Shown in pieces: positions 16,206 through 24,882 of a DNA stretch of 24,882 bases (positions are counted from its first letter, which is position 1; every line of letters begins with the position of its first letter). The position numbers were made by a program, and so were the translations under genes. The notes below the pieces were generated by a model. It was not told the DNA's origin. It ran no database searches and was given only the letters and a program-made list of their open reading frames with translations. Source of the DNA: a virus; IMG/VR virus record IMGVR_UViG_3300037891_000829, positions 1-24,882 of that record, one strand, 5' to 3'.

Positions 16206-16213
16206 TATAAATA
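16206..16213 (+). promoter_or_regulatory. T4-type late promoter (TATAAATA) for the 16240 gene
   Basis: An exact TATAAATA octamer, the T4 late-promoter -10 consensus read by the phage sigma factor gp55 with the gp33 co-activator, lies in the short gap after the giant gene. By T4 geometry transcription would start near 16219. No -35 element is needed by this promoter class. The surroundings are AT-rich, so chance is possible, but a second exact copy sits in the next structural-gene gap. Confidence 0.6.
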
Positions 16214-16239
16214 TATATTAAGTTAATATGGAAAAGAAC

Positions 16240-16875: not shown

Positions 16876-16903
16876 TCTAAGTATATAGCTTTATTATTGT
16901 GGT
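16866..16903 (+). other. Long AT-rich hairpin overlapping a stop codon
   Basis: ACAATAAT at 16869-16876 pairs with ATTATTGT at 16893-16900, and G-U/C-G pairs extend the outer stem to 16866 and 16903. A small inner stem (AAG/CTT) closes a 7-base loop. No T-run follows on the + strand, so it is not a standard intrinsic terminator. It could protect the 3' end of the upstream mRNA or slow polymerase before the next promoter. Confidence 0.35.
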
Positions 16904-16909
16904 AGTTAA

Positions 16910-16917
16910 TATAAATA
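16910..16917 (+). promoter_or_regulatory. T4-type late promoter (TATAAATA) for the tail-fibre gene
   Basis: This is a second exact TATAAATA late-promoter octamer, 67 bases before the fibre ATG at 16984. The predicted start near 16923 gives a leader of about 60 bases containing an AGGAG Shine-Dalgarno at 16969-16973. The leader also holds two copies of the 10-mer TTATATAAAG (16920-16929 and 16948-16957) flanking a weak TGGTA/TACCA inverted repeat. Confidence 0.62.
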
Positions 16918-16983
16918 ACTTATATAAAGTTGGTACATTATATACCATTATATAAAGATTGAAAGTTTAGGAGAACATAAACA

Positions 16984-18309
16984 ATGCCATATACAGTAAA
17001 CAACACACGAGGAAGTATTGTTTCAACGGTAAATGACGGTACTACTGCTTCTATAGGTGGTATTACTTTAATTGGTAAAAACTTCACTGGTTATGGTGAA
17101 ACTATTGCCGAAGATTTTATAAAATTATTAGAAAACAATGCAAACACATCAGCACCAGCAGATCCACAAGAAGGACAGCTTTGGTGGGATACAACATATC
17201 AATCTTTAAAGGTTAGACTTTCAGGTTCAACTGGATGGCATCCAACAACAGTACACGTAGGTGCAACATATCCTCATGCAACTACATCAGGTTCTCTATG
17301 GTACAATACATCTACAAAACAATTAAACGTTAACGTAGATGGTACTGCAACAGGTTACAAACAATTTGCTTCAGCATCAGATAAATCATACACACAGGTT
17401 GTAGAATTAACTGCAACACACGTTGATGATGCATCAGCAAACAACAACGGTTACGTTGTTTCAGACAAAATTCAAGTAATTGCAGAAATTTTACAAACTA
17501 AAGCAGGTGCAGTTGAAGTAGCAAGAGTTGTTTCTCCAGCACATTTTAGATTTGCTGATCCAGGTGCAGGCACAGGTGTAAAAGTTGAAAAAGCAATCTT
17601 TGATGGCTTTACAGCGGCTATTACAGTAAGTTCATCTACAAGTACACAAACAGGTACATTAATTCACGGAGTTAATACTTGGGACAGTTTACAATCAGAA
17701 GGTGTTAATGCAGACCAATTAGGTGGTCATAGTGCATCATCATTTTTAAGATTAACAGCAACAGGCGGAACGTCAATTGTTCAACAACACATTGTTCCAC
17801 CAGCACACGGTTCAGCTGGTCAACCATCAGGAACACAACAAGGTTCAGCATCAATTGATTTAGGTGGCGATGGTAAGTTTTTCAGAAACGTTTATGCACA
17901 GGCAATGATTGCACAATATGGTGATATAGCAGAACGTTATGAAGCTGACGATGAATATGATTGTGGAACAGTTGTTGCACTAGCAGGTAACAAAGAAGTA
18001 ACACAAACAACAGAATTTAAAGATACAAAAGTATTTGGTGTAGTATCACAAAAACCAGGTCTAAAGTTAAATGCTTTAGCTGGAGATGATGCAACCCATC
18101 CATATATTGCTTATCAAGGTCGAGTGCTAACGAAAGTTATCGGCTCAGTAAGTAAAGGTGATCGTATTGTTTCTAGTACACTACCGGGCGTAGCACAACT
18201 AGTAGAAGACGAGAATAATGTTGATTACCGTGCGGTTATTGGCCGCAGTCTTGTCGACAAGACTTCGGAAGAAGTCGAATTAATTCCAATTGCAATAGGA
18301 GTAAAATAA
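16984..18309 (+). CDS. Tail fibre-like protein with C-terminal chaperone-like domain
   Basis: This is a 441-aa phage adhesin or fibre. The N-terminus (YTVNNTRGSIVSTVNDGT, then GKNFTGYGE) is the attachment type seen in marine phage fibres. Two beta units with a GQLWWDTTYQSLKV or GSLWYNTSTKQLNV core lie near residues 64 and 103. A fibre-type ADQLGGHSASSFLR segment lies near 243. From about residue 290 onward the protein carries the GDIAERYEADDEYDCGTVV domain (D314 onward), related to the C-terminal intramolecular chaperone or autoprocessing domains of phage appendages. Whether it is cleaved is not visible. It starts at an ATG with AGGAG 10 bases upstream, behind a late promoter, and overlaps the next gene by one base. 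The final 150 bases use unusual codons. Confidence 0.83.
   Translation: MPYTVNNTRGSIVSTVNDGTTASIGGITLIGKNFTGYGETIAEDFIKLLENNANTSAPADPQEGQLWWDTTYQSLKVRLSGSTGWHPTTVHVGATYPHATTSGSLWYNTSTKQLNVNVDGTATGYKQFASASDKSYTQVVELTATHVDDASANNNGYVVSDKIQVIAEILQTKAGAVEVARVVSPAHFRFADPGAGTGVKVEKAIFDGFTAAITVSSSTSTQTGTLIHGVNTWDSLQSEGVNADQLGGHSASSFLRLTATGGTSIVQQHIVPPAHGSAGQPSGTQQGSASIDLGGDGKFFRNVYAQAMIAQYGDIAERYEADDEYDCGTVVALAGNKEVTQTTEFKDTKVFGVVSQKPGLKLNALAGDDATHPYIAYQGRVLTKVIGSVSKGDRIVSSTLPGVAQLVEDENNVDYRAVIGRSLVDKTSEEVELIPIAIGVK
18250..18276 (+). repeat. Adjacent palindrome and GGAA-loop inverted repeat at fibre gene end
   Basis: CTTGTCGACAAG at 18250-18261 is a perfect 12-base palindrome. It is followed without a gap by GACTTC-GGAA-GAAGTC (18261-18276), a 6-bp stem closed by a GNRA-type tetraloop. 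Both lie in codons of the last 20 residues of the fibre protein. The local GC is clearly higher than in neighbouring genes. Possible roles are an RNA hairpin that tunes the coupled downstream start, or a recombination junction. Confidence 0.5.
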
Positions 18310-19247
18310 TGGCTTACCAACAAGGTGATACAATTCAAGCAAGTGATTACAACACATTTGCGACAAACATTAACACAATAATTGGTACTGGCTCAACAGA
18401 TAGTGGTTATGGGAACACAGAAGTCGCATCGATTTCTGCAGGGAACACAATTACAGCGGCACAATGGAATGCATTACTTTCTGCTTTACAGAAAGGTGCT
18501 AACCACCAAGGTACTACATTGACGAATGCGTCAAACACAGTATCAGCGGGCGGAAACATTTTGCCATTATCAAACTTAGAGGCAGATATCACATTAATTA
18601 CAAATAACAAAGCAACAGCAGATGCGTCAAATATGGCAACTGACACTGGTGTAACTTCAACAAGAACATCAGCTTGGTCAGGAACAGTACAACACATATT
18701 TACAGTAACATTTGCTAGTGCAAACGCAGGCAGACACTTTTTTAACTCAGGTGGTGAAATTAGATTTGCTGGATCACGTTCAGGTGGTTCTTCAACAGAT
18801 CAAAACACTGACTGGACTAACTTATTGTCAGATGCGGCAACAGTAAAATTTGCAGAGACTTCAACTTCATACACTGGTTCAGGTGGAACAGCGGCTTCAG
18901 TTGGTTTTGATGATTTAACAACATCAAATCAACAAATTTTTACAGCAACTGGCGATGGACAGTATACAGCGAATGATTGGACAATCGAAGCAAAAGCGAA
19001 TGCGGCTTATGGGTCAGCAACCGTTTTAACGTTTACTGTTTATTTTAAAGATGACCATGCTTCTTCAACTGGTACATTTACTGGTGGCGGTTTAGGTACT
19101 GCTCCAAACGAAGGTACAGGTTGGACTGGTGCTGACTCAGTTGATGGAACTTTAACTAGCACAATTACTACATTAAGAGCGGATAACGCCTCTAAAGTAC
19201 AAGTTGCTAATCCAAGTTCTAACACAACTACAGAAGTTAGTGCATAA
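18309..19247 (+). CDS. Second fibre/adhesin-like virion protein
   Basis: This 312-aa protein overlaps the fibre gene stop by one base (TAATG) behind AGGAG at 18297-18301, so the two are co-translated. The N-terminal 75 residues contain two similar units, DTIQASDYNTFATNINTI and NTITAAQWNALLSALQ, a Q-x-S/A-x-D/Q-Y/W-N pattern that suggests a duplicated helical cap. The middle has a RHFFNSGGEIRFAGSRSGG segment familiar from phage structural and fibre proteins. The rest is beta-strand and Gly/Ser/Thr rich, without enzyme motifs, Cys or a membrane segment. It probably caps or accompanies the fibre, possibly as a receptor-contact protein. That role is inference from the operon and composition. Confidence 0.68.
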   Translation: MAYQQGDTIQASDYNTFATNINTIIGTGSTDSGYGNTEVASISAGNTITAAQWNALLSALQKGANHQGTTLTNASNTVSAGGNILPLSNLEADITLITNNKATADASNMATDTGVTSTRTSAWSGTVQHIFTVTFASANAGRHFFNSGGEIRFAGSRSGGSSTDQNTDWTNLLSDAATVKFAETSTSYTGSGGTAASVGFDDLTTSNQQIFTATGDGQYTANDWTIEAKANAAYGSATVLTFTVYFKDDHASSTGTFTGGGLGTAPNEGTGWTGADSVDGTLTSTITTLRADNASKVQVANPSSNTTTEVSA

Positions 19248-19264: not shown

Positions 19265-19293
19265 TTGACTTTTACGCCTCCGTTATGTATAAT
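19265..19293 (+). promoter_or_regulatory. Sigma70-type promoter for the modification operon
   Basis: TTGACT at 19265-19270 and TATAAT at 19288-19293 are separated by exactly 17 bases, a near-perfect host housekeeping promoter. The predicted start is near 19300, giving a leader of about 18 bases that contains GGAGG (19307-19311). It uses a different promoter class from the late promoters upstream, so the downstream genes could be expressed early or through the whole infection. The -10 box lies inside the hairpin of the overlapping terminator. Confidence 0.65.
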
Positions 19294-19317
19294 ATTATAC
19301 ATAAACGGAGGTTTTTT
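19277..19317 (+). terminator. Intrinsic terminator overlapping promoter and RBS
   Basis: CCTCCGTT (19277-19284) pairs with AACGGAGG (19304-19311). The stem continues through ATGTAT/ATACAT with one bulged A, closing an AT-rich loop, and is followed at once by six T residues (19312-19317). This is a strong rho-independent terminator for read-through from the fibre operon. The 3' arm is also the GGAGG Shine-Dalgarno of the gene at 19318, so any read-through RNA would hide that site. Confidence 0.72.
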
Positions 19318-19668
19318 ATGAGTGATGAACGATTACACAAAGCATTAGAATTTGCTAATTATAGGCAGACATTTTTTAATCAAAAACAAATCCTGAAAAA
19401 TAAAAGTCAGGCATTGCTATCATATTCAACAGAGGGTGGTACATTTAAAGTAACACAAGAGTTAATTGCTTTTGTTGGTACTTTTGTACAACAAGGATAT
19501 GAAGAAATGGTATTGTTAGATGTAAATGAAAATCCAATTAAGATAGATAATTTAAAATCTTTCTTAACAGAAATTACATCAAGATATTTTGAAGTAACAA
19601 ATGATTATCATAAGCAATATAGTGAAATGCAAACTAAAAGAAGAACTGCAAAATTAGTAGAAGCATGA
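19318..19668 (+). CDS. Small protein of unknown function, first gene of the cassette
   Basis: This 116-aa protein (MSDERLHKALEF onward) has no recognised domain. An N-terminal amphipathic helical stretch rich in Lys, Gln and Phe is followed by a TEGGTFKVTQELIAFVGTFV beta-helix patch, then VLLDVNENPIKI and a C-terminal charged helix. There is no signal peptide, membrane segment or Cys. I choose the ATG at 19318 because GGAGG ends 6 bases before it. An in-frame ATG at 19285 lies inside the terminator stem and upstream of the predicted transcript start, so it is unlikely to be used. The stop overlaps the next start (ATGA). Its position suggests a small partner of the enzymes downstream or a phage assembly protein; neither can be shown. 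Confidence 0.72.
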   Translation: MSDERLHKALEFANYRQTFFNQKQILKNKSQALLSYSTEGGTFKVTQELIAFVGTFVQQGYEEMVLLDVNENPIKIDNLKSFLTEITSRYFEVTNDYHKQYSEMQTKRRTAKLVEA

Positions 19669-20549
19669 GCAAAGGTATAGTATTTTTTGCACATAACAAT
19701 TCTGAAATTGATTATGGTAGTATAGCATTAGCAAACGCCTTAATGATTAAACATCATATGGGGCTTGACGCTATTACTTTAATTACTGACGAAGGTACTG
19801 TAAGACACTTAAAGACACAATATGATCAAAGTTTACTTGATAGTACCTTTGAAAATATAAAAATACAACCAAGAAAAAAAGTAGATAATAACAAACGTTA
19901 TAGAGATACAAGACATACAGTAAATTTATTACAATTTTATAATATTAATAGATCAACAGTTTTTACACAATCTCCATATGATGAAACATTAGTTATTGAC
20001 GTTGATTATTTAATTTGTAATAATACGTTAAATCAAATCTGGGGACATAAAGAAGACTTGATGATTAATAGAAAAAGTTATGATTTATTATCTGGAAGAC
20101 GTCACCAAGAGTTTGATAGAGTAGATGATTTTGGAATTGACTTTTACTGGGCTACTGTATTTTTCTTTAGAAAAACAGAACAAACAGAAATATTTTTTAA
20201 TCTATTAGAAGCTATTAAAGAAAATTATCCTTACTTTAAAACACTCTACGGAATTAACACGTACAACTTTAGAAATGATCATGCATTTAGTATTGCTGTT
20301 CATATGTTTAATGGTTTTGCAAAAAGTCAATTAGTAAAAAACCTTCCAGTTGATTTTTTACAACACACATTAGATTATGATGAACTTCATAATGTAGATT
20401 CAAAAGGATCACTATCATTTTTATTAGAAAAAATAAGTGAACCTGGAAACTTTATTCCAGCACGTACTGATGGCGTTAATGTCCATGTAATGAACAAGTA
20501 TTCAATTGTACGACAGAGTAAAAAAATAGTAGAGATGTATAGTGCATAA
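19665..20549 (+). CDS. GT-A-like glycosyltransferase (first paralogue)
   Basis: This 294-aa protein resembles nucleotide-sugar transferases of the GT-A fold. It opens with a short strand (GIVFFAHNN), then helical LANALMIKHH, and carries a metal/nucleotide-binding DxD motif, D112-V-D114, in the hydrophobic context ETLVIDVDYLI. A preceding SPYDETL matches TPYEQTV in the gene at 21093, so the two are paralogues. The C-terminal part (aromatic-rich, with NVHVMNKYS) would form the acceptor side. No membrane segment is seen, so it should act in the cytoplasm, on phage proteins, DNA or host glycan precursors. The start overlaps the previous stop (ATGA) and the end overlaps the GTG start downstream by 8 bases. 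Donor and acceptor are unknown. Confidence 0.74.
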   Translation: MSKGIVFFAHNNSEIDYGSIALANALMIKHHMGLDAITLITDEGTVRHLKTQYDQSLLDSTFENIKIQPRKKVDNNKRYRDTRHTVNLLQFYNINRSTVFTQSPYDETLVIDVDYLICNNTLNQIWGHKEDLMINRKSYDLLSGRRHQEFDRVDDFGIDFYWATVFFFRKTEQTEIFFNLLEAIKENYPYFKTLYGINTYNFRNDHAFSIAVHMFNGFAKSQLVKNLPVDFLQHTLDYDELHNVDSKGSLSFLLEKISEPGNFIPARTDGVNVHVMNKYSIVRQSKKIVEMYSA

Positions 20550-21096
20550 AATTTTATTAACAGACATAGACGGCGTAGTATTAAACTGGTCAGACCATTT
20601 TCAAAAATATTTAAAACAGTATTATCCAGAAGTATCGTTGTGGGATCCTACAACATTTGCACAATCAGATCAAACAGCAGACATTATAAAATATTATAAT
20701 AATACTGCATGGATTGGGTTCTTGCCTCCTTTAAGAGATGCACAAGAAATATTACCAAAGTTTAAACAAGAGGGTTGGGAAATTATTGCTTGTACATCAA
20801 TGGGTGTAGATCAATATGCAAACGCATTACGAAAACAAAATATTGAAAGTTTATTTCCAGATGTGTTCGCAAGAATTGATATTATTCCATTTATGGAACC
20901 AAAAAACAAATGGCTATCACAATACAAAGGAAGTGGTGCTATATGGGTGGAAGACAAGTGGACAAACGCAGTAGCAGGTGCTGATATTGGGCTTAAGACA
21001 TACTTTATGAAGCATGAATACAATGCAAAGTATAGTGCAAACAATATTGAAAAAGTTGATAATTGGATACAAATTTACAATAAGGTGAACAAATGA
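20542..21096 (+). CDS. HAD-superfamily phosphatase, nucleotidase-like
   Basis: This 184-aa protein shows the HAD phosphatase motifs in order: motif I D8-I-D10-G (nucleophile and acid/base Asp), motif II CTSMG with Thr85/Ser86, a Lys region PKNKW near 120-124 as motif III, and motif IV VED (E137, D138) followed by KWTNA. Size and layout fit the small 5'(3')-deoxyribonucleotidase-like branch, which removes phosphate from nucleotides or sugar phosphates. The start is a GTG at 20542 overlapping the upstream gene by 8 bases; the in-frame sequence before it lacks a better start. Placement between two glycosyltransferases fits dephosphorylation of a sugar-phosphate or nucleotide intermediate. That substrate is inference. 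Confidence 0.78.
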   Translation: MHKILLTDIDGVVLNWSDHFQKYLKQYYPEVSLWDPTTFAQSDQTADIIKYYNNTAWIGFLPPLRDAQEILPKFKQEGWEIIACTSMGVDQYANALRKQNIESLFPDVFARIDIIPFMEPKNKWLSQYKGSGAIWVEDKWTNAVAGADIGLKTYFMKHEYNAKYSANNIEKVDNWIQIYNKVNK

Positions 21097-21968
21097 AACA
21101 AGGTTATTTGGTAATAGCACAGAATTCTAAAGATGCAGATGGCAAATCTATTAATTATGTACGTATGGCTTATGCATTAGCATTAAGTATCAAGCATACA
21201 CAATCACAAATTAAAAATATATCTATTGCTGTTATTAATAAATCAGATGTACCAGAACATTATAGAGCAGTATTTGATGAAGTTATTGAATTACCTTTTG
21301 AAGATGATGCTCAAATGGCAGATTGGAAAATTAACAACAAATGGAAATACTATCATTGCACACCTTATGAGCAAACAGTAATACTAGATACTGATATGTT
21401 GTTTATGACAGACCTAAGCCATTGGTGGGAATATTTTACACATTGGGATATGATGGCAACAACTAACGTTCAAACATATCGTGGCGAAACAATAATTGAT
21501 AATCATTATAGAAAAACATTTGGACCAAATATGTTGCCAAATGTATATACAGCATTTTTTTATTTTAACAAAAAATCAAGTATGGTAAATGAATATTTTA
21601 GTGTAGTTGAGGATATATTTAGACGTTGGGAATATTATAGAGATACATCACTAGTTTTACCAAAACAAGAATTTTTAAGTGCAGACGTTGTATATGCAAT
21701 GGCAATGAAAATGTTAGATATAGTTGAGCTATCAACTAATCCAGCAGTAACTTGTCCAACCTTTGTACACATGAAACCAAAATTACAAAATTGGAAGTCT
21801 GGAGCAAATGATGATTGGACTAAATCTATTGGAGCATATTTCACTCCTGATTGCAAATTAAAAATTGGTAATTATCAACAAACATTACCAGTTCATTATG
21901 TAACAAAGAATTTTCTTACAGATGAAATTATAAAAAGATATGAGGAGCAAGTATATGTCAACGTCTAG
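21093..21968 (+). CDS. GT-A-like glycosyltransferase (second paralogue)
   Basis: This 291-aa protein is a paralogue of the one at 19665. It has an N-terminal strand GYLVIAQNS, then MAYALALSIKHT, and the DxD motif D99-T-D101 within EQTVILDTDMLF, typical of sugar-nucleotide-dependent transferases that use a divalent metal. Downstream patches NVYTAFFYFNKKS and CPTFVHMKP align in order with WATVFFFRKT and NVHVMNKYS of its sister. It is cytoplasmic by lack of signal or membrane segments. AAGGTG at 21081-21086 precedes an ATG that overlaps the HAD stop (ATGA). Retention of two sister transferases suggests two successive sugar additions or two acceptors; the sequence does not name them. Confidence 0.76.
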   Translation: MKQGYLVIAQNSKDADGKSINYVRMAYALALSIKHTQSQIKNISIAVINKSDVPEHYRAVFDEVIELPFEDDAQMADWKINNKWKYYHCTPYEQTVILDTDMLFMTDLSHWWEYFTHWDMMATTNVQTYRGETIIDNHYRKTFGPNMLPNVYTAFFYFNKKSSMVNEYFSVVEDIFRRWEYYRDTSLVLPKQEFLSADVVYAMAMKMLDIVELSTNPAVTCPTFVHMKPKLQNWKSGANDDWTKSIGAYFTPDCKLKIGNYQQTLPVHYVTKNFLTDEIIKRYEEQVYVNV

Positions 21969-22569
21969 AATATTATATTATGATTTAGAAACAAAAGACA
22001 TTATAAAAATTGTTGGTGAAGTTGATAGCTCTGTTACACATCCATATTATGAAATTGAGTTTGAAGATATAAAAGAATTTATTGACGGTACAAAAGTACA
22101 ATCACAATATTACATAGAATTAAATCCAAAAGATCCAAATGATTTTACAATTAAGAAAAAAGAAATACATTTGAATATAAGAGAAATAGATAAAACACTA
22201 CATAAAATTAGACAAGGTACAGATGATGATTTAAGTTATGATATTAGAGTTGTACATAATAAACAAGATAAAACAATTAGTTTTGAATTTAACCCTACAT
22301 TAAAAGCATATATGGCAAGTAAGTATCAACTTACAGGTAAACAGCAAAAGTTTACTAATCCAGAAATGCTTGTAATAAATGGAACAAGTATACTAAACTT
22401 CTTTATAACACAAACAGGTGACCCACATGATTTATTTGCAAGTTATTATGTACCTGTTGTACAGCTACTTACACAAGATAAGTTAACAGCACCTTACAAA
22501 GGAGAGTTAAATACTTGTAACGTGTTTACACGAAGAATATATGACGATTACTTAATGGTGGAGAAATAA
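21955..22569 (+). CDS. Conserved-looking hypothetical phage protein
   Basis: This 204-aa protein (MSTSRILYYDLETKD onward) is Asp, Lys and Ile rich with no motif I can assign. The N-terminal half alternates strands and acidic helices, a KKKEIHLNIREIDKTLHKIR helix is central, and the C-terminus has an NGTSILNFFITQTGDPHDLF patch. The start at 21955 is chosen because GAGGAG (21942-21947) sits 7 bases before it. An in-frame ATG at 21940 would contain that Shine-Dalgarno and has none of its own. The gene overlaps the end of the glycosyltransferase by 14 bases and is 1 base from the next, so it belongs to the operon. Function unknown; it may be a partner subunit. Confidence 0.68.
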   Translation: MSTSRILYYDLETKDIIKIVGEVDSSVTHPYYEIEFEDIKEFIDGTKVQSQYYIELNPKDPNDFTIKKKEIHLNIREIDKTLHKIRQGTDDDLSYDIRVVHNKQDKTISFEFNPTLKAYMASKYQLTGKQQKFTNPEMLVINGTSILNFFITQTGDPHDLFASYYVPVVQLLTQDKLTAPYKGELNTCNVFTRRIYDDYLMVEK

Positions 22570-22570
22570 T

Positions 22571-23605
22571 ATGGAAATAGATACAAATATACAAAAAGAC
22601 AAAGAATTAAAGATAAAAATATCTGATATAGACATATTTTACCTATCATATGATGAACCTAATTACCAAGAACATTGGGCAGATATTGTAAACAAAGTTC
22701 CATGGGCAAAACACGTACATGGTGTAGAAGGTTCTGATGCGGCACACAAAGCCTGTGCTAATAGAAGTGATACTGATCGATTTATTACAGTAGATGGCGA
22801 TAACAAGTTAGTTAACTATGATAAACTAATTGATTTAGAATTAGATTTTTCAGACTATAATTTAGAAAACTTAAATCAATCGGTTATATCTTTTACAGGT
22901 TATAATAACATTAATGGATTAATGTATGGTAACGGTGGTATTAAATGCTGGCCCAAACAAGCAGTACTTGATATGAAAACCCACGAAGCGGCAGAATCAG
23001 AAGGCTCTGCGGTAGACTTTTGTTGGGATATGAATTACATACAATTAAATGAATGTTTCTCACACGTATATAATAATGCAACACCGTATCAGGCATATCG
23101 AGCAGGTTTTAGAGAAGGTGTTAAAATGTCATTAGATAGAGGATTCAAGGTCGATCCAGTTAACTTTGAAAAAAACGTACATGATAAAAACTATCATAGA
23201 CTTCTAATATGGGCATCAGTTGGTATGGATGTGCCAAATGGTTTATGGGCATTATATGGTACTAGACTTGGTTGTTACATGACTAATTGTACCGATTGGG
23301 ATTTTGTTAAAGTGCGAGACTTTGAAGAACATACTAGGTTTTGGAATGAAGAAGTTAAACCTCAATTTGCAGGTGGCAATGAAACTTGTCATTATGAAAA
23401 GTATCAATGGGATAAAGATAAACTTTGGAATGAAACTATACGGCTTGGTAAAGAGTTAAGAAACAAACTTGGAATGCAAATTGATGATTTAAGTGCAGAA
23501 GGTTCTGCATTCTTTAAGAAAGTATATTGGAATCCACCTAGATCTGGAGCATTTGTAACAGAGAAAGGTACTGACGGAATTACTCGTTATAAAGTATTGA
23601 AATGA
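22571..23605 (+). CDS. GT-A-like glycosyltransferase-type protein (third, distinct family)
   Basis: This 344-aa protein starts at an ATG with GGAG 7 bases upstream. The N-terminal 80 residues resemble a nucleotide-sugar-binding Rossmann-like domain: DIDIFYLSYDEPNYQEHW, then HGVEGSDAAHKACANRS, then a D75-G-D77 motif in FITVDGDNKLV, the place of the GT-A DxD. The C-terminal part is rich in Trp, Tyr and Cys (for example NCTDWDF) and unlike the other two transferases. It shares the operon with them and overlaps the radical SAM start by four bases. It probably transfers or recognises a sugar. The acceptor is unknown, and a binding-only role is possible because the remaining catalytic residues cannot be identified. 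Confidence 0.63.
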   Translation: MEIDTNIQKDKELKIKISDIDIFYLSYDEPNYQEHWADIVNKVPWAKHVHGVEGSDAAHKACANRSDTDRFITVDGDNKLVNYDKLIDLELDFSDYNLENLNQSVISFTGYNNINGLMYGNGGIKCWPKQAVLDMKTHEAAESEGSAVDFCWDMNYIQLNECFSHVYNNATPYQAYRAGFREGVKMSLDRGFKVDPVNFEKNVHDKNYHRLLIWASVGMDVPNGLWALYGTRLGCYMTNCTDWDFVKVRDFEEHTRFWNEEVKPQFAGGNETCHYEKYQWDKDKLWNETIRLGKELRNKLGMQIDDLSAEGSAFFKKVYWNPPRSGAFVTEKGTDGITRYKVLK

Positions 23606-24882
23606 CCGATGAAGTACTTAAAATTAAACAAACCAGAAACAAACTAAATGCTGTTTCACCAAGTTTTTGTCTAGCAAAGTGGTATCAATCAACGATACAC
23701 TTACAGTATGGACACACACATAGTTGTCATCATCCAAGAACACACAAAGTACCTGTAGAAGAACTAAAAAATAATCCTAGTGCTTTACATAATACAGAAT
23801 ATAAAAAATCACAAAGAGAATTAATGTTAAAAGGAGTAAGGCCTCCTGAATGCCAGTATTGTTGGAATGTAGAAGACCTAGGTCCAGAACATTATAGTGA
23901 TAGAAGTTCTAAATCAAATGAAGAGTGGGCTAAACCTTTTTTAAAAGAAACAGCTGACATGGTTGGTGTAGAAAATGTTAATCCAACTTATGTCGAAGTT
24001 AGTTTTTCAAATGTATGCAATTTGAAATGCTCTTACTGTTCACCTGCATTTAGTAGTTCATGGATGGAAGAAATCCAATCTCAAGGAGCATACCCAACAA
24101 GTGATAATTTTAATAATTTAGATTGGCTACGAAAAGAAGGCAAATTACCTATTCCGCATCGTGAACATAATCCGTATGTTGACGCATTTTGGAAATGGTT
24201 CCCTGACCTGTATAAAAACCTCCAAGTTTTCCGAATCACAGGTGGGGAACCGCTTTTAACTAAAGATACATTTAAAGTCTTAGATTACATTAATAATAAT
24301 CCAAGACCAGAATTAGAGTTAGCAATTAATTCTAATGGATGTGTTCCGGATAAACTTTTTGATCAGTATATCGAAAAAATGAAACGTATTACGTTAGATA
24401 ATAAAATTGGTTTAACTAGACTGTATACAAGTGTAGATACATTTGGAGAACAAGCAGAATACATTAGAGATGGATTAAATTTTAACCAATGGTATGATAA
24501 TATATGCCGTGTGTTAACAGAACTGCCAAAAACAAAAGTAACAATAATGTGTACAACTGGATTATTGAGTTTACCAAACTTTCATAAACTTGTAGATATG
24601 ATACATCCATTAAAAAGAGAATTTTATAGTCATGCTAGAAAAGTACCAATAACATTAGATACAGCAATACTAAGACATCCAAGTTATTTAAGTGGTGTAG
24701 TTGCTGATCCTAGTTATTCTAATATGTTAGATAGCTCTGTTAAAATTATGTTAGAAAATGCAGAAACATATGATAATCCTTACAAAGGATTTTTTGATTT
24801 TGAAATAGCAAAGCTAAAACGTTTTCAACAGTATATTGCGGCAGGACCCAATCCACAAGAACGATTAAATATAAAACAAGTA
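23602..24882 (+). CDS. Radical SAM enzyme with N-terminal twitch-like Cys domain, partial
   Basis: The frame starts at the ATG of an ATGA overlap and stays open for 427 codons to the window edge. The radical SAM core has C139-x3-C143-x2-C146 (CNLKCSYC), the [4Fe-4S] site that cleaves S-adenosylmethionine, and RITGGEP (G214-P217) for SAM binding. Before the core, C23, C42 (in HSCHHP) and C84-x2-C87 (ECQYCW) form a four-Cys set like the twitch/SPASM auxiliary-cluster fold. That fold usually follows the core in peptide-modifying radical SAM enzymes; here it comes first. It is probably cytoplasmic. The substrate could be a peptide, a protein side chain or a sugar; the glycosyltransferase neighbours make a sugar or glycoprotein plausible. 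The C-terminus is outside the window. Confidence 0.85.
   Translation, partial: MTDEVLKIKQTRNKLNAVSPSFCLAKWYQSTIHLQYGHTHSCHHPRTHKVPVEELKNNPSALHNTEYKKSQRELMLKGVRPPECQYCWNVEDLGPEHYSDRSSKSNEEWAKPFLKETADMVGVENVNPTYVEVSFSNVCNLKCSYCSPAFSSSWMEEIQSQGAYPTSDNFNNLDWLRKEGKLPIPHREHNPYVDAFWKWFPDLYKNLQVFRITGGEPLLTKDTFKVLDYINNNPRPELELAINSNGCVPDKLFDQYIEKMKRITLDNKIGLTRLYTSVDTFGEQAEYIRDGLNFNQWYDNICRVLTELPKTKVTIMCTTGLLSLPNFHKLVDMIHPLKREFYSHARKVPITLDTAILRHPSYLSGVVADPSYSNMLDSSVKIMLENAETYDNPYKGFFDFEIAKLKRFQQYIAAGPNPQERLNIKQV

Follow-up and report, generated by a model that had tools for sequence, protein, structure and literature searches.

Phages RB49 and phi1 of the T4 type reportedly carry short cassettes termed PeSLs (promoter-early stem-loops), which Arbiol et al. 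in 2010 and Comeau et al. in 2014 are said to have described as many per genome, lying among the early genes and mediating gene shuffling. Each combines a sigma70 promoter with a terminator stem-loop. In the RB49 sequence we located the -10 hexamer in or beside the loop at 42355, 39130, 36985, 57732 and 3201; in most of these cassettes the Shine-Dalgarno sequence (SD) is separate and downstream, and no T-run precedes the start codon. The modB cassette of this well-studied phage (AY343333, about 9482 to 9420, minus strand) has its -10 just 5' of the stem and, within the 3' arm, GGAGG with T6 after it, a layout close to that of the element described here.

A second arrangement acts on translation. 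T4 genes e, soc, 49, I-TevI and segB, and mobE of Aeh1, have hairpins that hide the SD and contain an internal late promoter; the long RNA hides the SD, and RNA from the internal promoter, which lacks the 5' arm, is translated (PMC3014915, PMC2988022). We checked the T4 gene e sequence and found that the hairpin loop contains TATAAATA and the 3' arm AGGAGG.

Here we describe an element that shares features with both systems. It lies in a complete 24,882-base IMG/VR virus entry, the whole of which was analyzed and is called the window below. The source is a marine giant phage, and the entry is probably a fragment of the genome of a giant myovirus. Jumbo phages Atu_ph07, SCTP-2, PA5oct and their relatives have baseplate proteins 37-44% identical to its gp6-like one.

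Results

The element follows a series of genes for baseplate and probable fibre proteins, and given this gene order, read-through RNA from the gene immediately upstream would run into its hairpin. A family search with that gene gave no match. The T4-type late promoter TATAAATA occurs just twice on the plus strand of the window, each time upstream of structural genes, and was not found on the minus strand. The leader behind the later of the two is about 65 nt long, compared with short leaders elsewhere, and within 16880-16985 it carries TTATATAAAG twice (16920 and 16948), flanking a possible GGTA/TACC hairpin. Beyond the element, the genes from 19665 to 24882 include a predicted nucleotidase-like protein (NT5C, 20542-21096), several others without a family match and, from 23603 onward, a gene that looks radical-SAM-like by eye and runs off the end of the record.

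Table 1. Positions of the element, its parts and its neighbors in the window.
Feature	Position	Strand	Remarks
T4-type late promoter TATAAATA, second	16206..16213	+	Upstream of the gene at 16228
T4-type late promoter TATAAATA	16910..16917	+	Upstream of the structural genes leading into the element
Upstream gene, probable tail-fibre protein	18309..19247	+	ORF; role suggested by position
-35 hexamer TTGACT	19265..19270	+	11/12 matches together with the -10; spacer 17
Hairpin 5' arm	19276..19291	+	Anti-SD side CCTCC, 19277-19281
-10 hexamer TATAAT	19288..19293	+	In top of 5' arm and loop
Hairpin loop	19292..19295	+	Minimum-energy fold
Hairpin 3' arm	19296..19312	+	A19303 bulged
Predicted transcription start	19299..19302	+	6-9 nt past the -10, beyond 5' arm and loop; from promoter geometry
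Shine-Dalgarno GGAGG	19307..19311	+	Within the 3' arm
T6 tract	19312..19317	+	Terminator U-tract and SD-to-start spacer
ATG	19318..19320	+	Opens a 116-codon ORF ending at 19668
Downstream gene, 116 aa, probable tail-fibre assembly chaperone	19318..19668	+	ORF, relatives, AlphaFold2, Foldseek

The 53 bases from 19265 to 19317 carry promoter, hairpin, SD and T6, and the start codon follows directly. This overlap, which the initial annotation had pointed out, can be read off the DNA. The hairpin it described does exist, with its boundaries one base further out on each side: the minimum-energy fold at 19276-19312 has 16 pairs, whereas 19277-19311 holds only 15. The stem (-20.7 kcal/mol) has one bulge, an outermost G-U pair and an AT-rich upper part, and runs directly into T6. 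A mechanical terminator scan of the region did not pick it up, probably because of the bulge and the AT-rich top.

We folded both of the RNAs that could cover the SD. In agreement with the initial annotation, the predicted probability that the SD is unpaired was 0.000 in the read-through RNA and 0.82 in the promoter-start RNA, which lacks the 5' arm, and it was about equal for any start from 19296 to 19304. In the sister elements the SD was likewise predicted to be closed in read-through RNA (unpaired probability 0.00-0.02, except 0.28 in L354); in the promoter-start RNA of L005 and the other sisters it was open only at 0.06-0.64, owing to weak alternative pairing of the SD.

We therefore compared the element with the described systems feature by feature. 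As in the PeSLs, a strong sigma70 promoter and a stem-loop, here a putative terminator, share one short cassette, with the -10 inside or beside the stem-loop as in RB49. Unlike them, it is present once in a 328-kb relative (the window being only a fragment), which also rules out a mobile repeat within the genome, and it stands at a fibre-gene junction rather than in a hyperplastic region of early genes; most RB49 cassettes also differ in the placement of the SD described above. As in the gene e type, the SD lies in the 3' arm of a hairpin that is stable in the long RNA, and RNA from the internal promoter, at its predicted start, would lack the 5' arm. The internal promoter, however, is late in the gene e type and of sigma70 type here. 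Read-through RNA is early or middle in the gene e type, whereas the operon upstream of our element has late promoters, and the U-tract makes our hairpin a likely terminator, unlike that of gene e. The element also has the stable stem with a U-tract directly after it that marks an intrinsic terminator in sequence, and an ordinary terminator followed by a promoter gives the same net function, as in L006-L009 and most relatives with late promoters, but as separate parts in series instead of shared bases. Because two PeSL features and one gene e feature are absent, we file the element under neither; by analogy it would work like a PeSL promoter-terminator fused to an SD-hiding hairpin of the gene e type.

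The reading that we prefer, at a probability of roughly 0.57, is a compact boundary that acts on read-through RNA as terminator and SD mask and starts a fresh sigma70 RNA from which the 116-aa gene is translated. Polymerase arriving from the fibre genes would transcribe both arms, the RNA would fold, and U6 would stop synthesis before the start codon; any RNA that escaped would have its SD paired and be poorly translated. The sigma70-type promoter, with its -10 at the hairpin apex, would start RNA at about 19300, past the 5' arm. Such RNA could not fold the hairpin, would be neither terminated nor masked, and would yield the 116-aa protein independently of the fibre mRNA. That only internal-promoter transcripts are translated is a prediction.

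To see how relatives arrange the same junction, we reached 94 readable orthologous junctions besides the window's own through the downstream protein. An automatic classifier sorted them, and several loci were reset by hand before the tree was built: the "composite" class of L006-L008 and L383-L384 and the SD-hairpin call of L009 were spurious AT-rich folds by eye, and L010, L013, L262 and L272 were assigned to terminator plus late promoter. Class A, the nested sigma70 element, comprises the window and L003-L005. Class B (L006-L009) has separate parts in the order terminator (GGGCGGCAACGCCC-T7), sigma70 promoter, GGAGG. Class C, a separate terminator plus late promoter, is the largest. Class D has a nested late-promoter element, GATAAATA, with the SD in the 3' arm, and is found in ten phages (L285/L346, L347-L354 and L307). 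Nested sigma70 elements with a different stem, ACTCCACTTG / CAAGTGGAGT, make up class E (L277, L299 and L300), and class F (L385) has TTGCAA-17-TATAAT within TCCCTGG / CCTAGGGA, with T6. Many junctions (L365-L384 and others) have a promoter and no visible terminator.

Most often, relatives retain a terminator together with a promoter of the gene's own, if by other means, which supports the initial annotation, and the nested geometry that it proposed recurs in separate lineages. Four nested sigma70 elements belong to the window's group and four to two other lineages. In a protein tree of the downstream gene, class D forms one clade (100/99), class A stands beside class B, and the nested sigma70 elements are scattered, the starred branches requiring three or more changes of the label. 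The tree rests on 114 columns, which resolve few deep forks; a few of the changes may be losses, and the position of L385, on a long branch, is unsure. Nested elements occur in several lineages, "several" being safe and an exact count of origins not.

Late promoters are plausible in these phages, since ATAAATA before ORFs is 3.5- to 17-fold enriched on the sense relative to the antisense strand, and 5 of 5 giant relatives have a late sigma resembling gp55. In class D, GATAAATA sits in the hairpin loop some 50 bases ahead of the start codon, as the late counterpart of the window's element, which brings this class closer to gene e. Upstream of the start in L365-L372, L375 and L376, sigma70 and late motifs overlap (for example TTGACAAACAATCATAAATAAGTTATAGT), as if both early and late transcription of the gene could begin at almost one position.

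The initial annotation had suggested looking for compensatory stem changes in relatives, and class D provided them. Across its alignment, 91.9% of the cells for the 16 pairs are paired, compared with 34-49% in slid controls, and four pairs have changed on both sides, including U-A to C-G in the SD stem (variants are CCCCC/GGGGG in L347 and CTCCCG/CGGGAG in L353). Seven cells are double-changed, a number reached by 1 of 500 shuffles, counts that are not probabilities because the rows are related, and slid controls gave 1-2. On a terminator score, the window reached +16.2 and its group +13.5 to +16.2, two RB49 cassettes about +27 and the T4 gene e hairpin, without a U-tract, -36. Class D scored mostly below zero, so termination may not be a shared function.

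These data bear on whether SD pairing matters at all. Terminator and promoter might act while the pairing is a mere by-product of packing, with no translational control. L006-L009, whose downstream protein is 92-94% identical to the window's, fit such a view, keeping terminator, sigma70 promoter and GGAGG while no strong stem covers the SD, and efficient termination would in any case leave little read-through to mask. It accounts less well for the recurrence of SD hairpins with nested promoters in several lineages, or for class D, which keeps the SD paired through compensatory changes though the terminator scores of most members are poor. We lean against this explanation while taking it as a real possibility. 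The initial annotation had made SD hiding part of its logic, and had itself named loss of the stem with GGAGG and promoter retained as the case against it; L006-L009 are that case, and in them terminator and promoter nonetheless both stay. Because four close relatives do without it, SD hiding may be incidental.

We also looked for similar spacers in viral contigs. Of 77 distinct GGAGG-T6-ATG sites leading into an ORF, 13 had the SD in a hairpin, and 7 of these 13 a nested promoter-like -10 or late motif (3 sigma70 and 4 late; shuffles about 0.1 and 0.02). The genes behind the hairpin sites differ, and translations read by eye include RNase H-type nuclease, dUTPase and heme oxygenase look-alikes. 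A replicate with CGGAGG-T5-ATG gave 5 SD hairpins in 72 sites and no nested promoter, so the nested-promoter enrichment was not replicated at these 72 sites. SD hairpins accompany T-run spacers (18/149) and not A-run spacers (0/98 GGAGG-A7-ATG control sites).

A preference of this kind is hard to square with the idea that the element is mainly a translational switch of the gene e type, hiding the SD in read-through RNA with termination playing a minor part; so are the T6 and positive terminator scores of the window's group. The shared layout does recall gene e, for which about 100-fold repression has been reported (PMC3014915), and the late-type sister elements have weak U-tracts. On balance we consider such a switch unlikely.

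We then asked how far the element exceeds chance. None of 200 shuffles folded as stably as the hairpin (z -4.96). Sigma70-like sites are common in the region, 50 found against 52 expected, and just two score 11/12; the promoter string on its own is not beyond chance. All 53 bases are identical in the window, L003 and L004, while fourfold sites of the next gene match at only 26/33, 30/35 and 23/34. In L005 a single base ahead of the stem is changed and the center is 2 bp longer; arms, promoter, SD and T6 are all retained. At ORF starts of three related giant-phage genomes, 5 sigma70 and 3 late matches lay within SD hairpins, at least one of the late matches (G013, 334457) looking spurious, where shuffle means summed over the three genomes were about 0.35 and 0.25. 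Nested promoter-hairpin-SD elements stand at unrelated genes in the 385-kb relative G013 (27698 and 366320) and the 290-kb relative G012 (62695). Scanning the whole genomes of three relatives brought up, for instance, TTGACA-17-TATATT nested in TCTCCGTTG...AACGGAGA and a perfect TATAAATA nested in CTCCTTG...CAAGGAG, both from the 385-kb relative. An Rfam search with the element gave no match, nor did nucleotide and protein searches of annotated phages with the region and the downstream gene.

A perfect 22-bp dyad, TTATGTATAATATTATACATAA (19283-19304), lies over the -10 and might be a DNA operator for a repressor, with the RNA hairpin incidental. The longer center of L005 alters the dyad spacing and leaves the RNA arms pairing, the conserved lower stem carries the SD, and other lineages pair different sequences, all of which makes an operator very improbable. 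That an AT-rich, promoter-like string happens to overlap a plain hairpin by chance, as the abundance of such strings might suggest, we reject on the fold, the identity of the element amid diverged synonymous sites, and a recurrence exceeding shuffles and controls. Since relatives achieve the same end in several ways, the element is real and probably selected.

The 116-aa product gave 11 relatives in a single-sequence search and no confident family in Pfam or PHROG, the Pfam matches being noise. Its AlphaFold2 model (pLDDT 90.9) had an uncharacterized phage protein as best Foldseek match, and many of the next matches were DUF4376-containing phage proteins. In Alteromonas phages V22 and A5, DUF4376 proteins whose genes directly follow fibre genes are described as chaperones of the tail fibre (PMC7289586, PMC10579305), and by this analogy to a modeled fold the 116-aa protein is probably the fibre's chaperone. 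Most relatives have a late promoter before the downstream gene. It is accordingly doubtful that the element separates late structural expression from an unrelated downstream cassette, as the initial annotation saw it; the arrangement suggests instead that the dose or timing of the chaperone is set separately from the fibre mRNA.

Discussion

Promoters within terminators and SD hiding are each already known from T4-like phages, which limits the surprise. On the reading that we favor, the compact boundary in the window carries the principle known from gene e over to a sigma70 promoter and couples it to a likely terminator. As an expression part, the nested form could provide insulation in very few bases.

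Between the window's group (CCTCCGTTA / TAAACGGAGG) and the late-promoter clade (CCTCCGTTAA / AAACGGAGG), the hairpin arms hardly differ. One tentative interpretation, which we would not expect to hold, is that giant phages reuse a boundary device in which the stem (terminator and SD mask) and the loop (promoter) are separable modules, evolution swapping the promoter in the loop from host-sigma to phage-late and leaving the SD-bearing arms in place. If so, the timing of the gene would be set by the loop alone.

At one orthologous junction, then, the same problem of stopping fibre RNA and starting fresh RNA is met by at least four layouts and two promoter classes, and the series makes a natural set for testing how terminators, promoters and translation signals become compacted.
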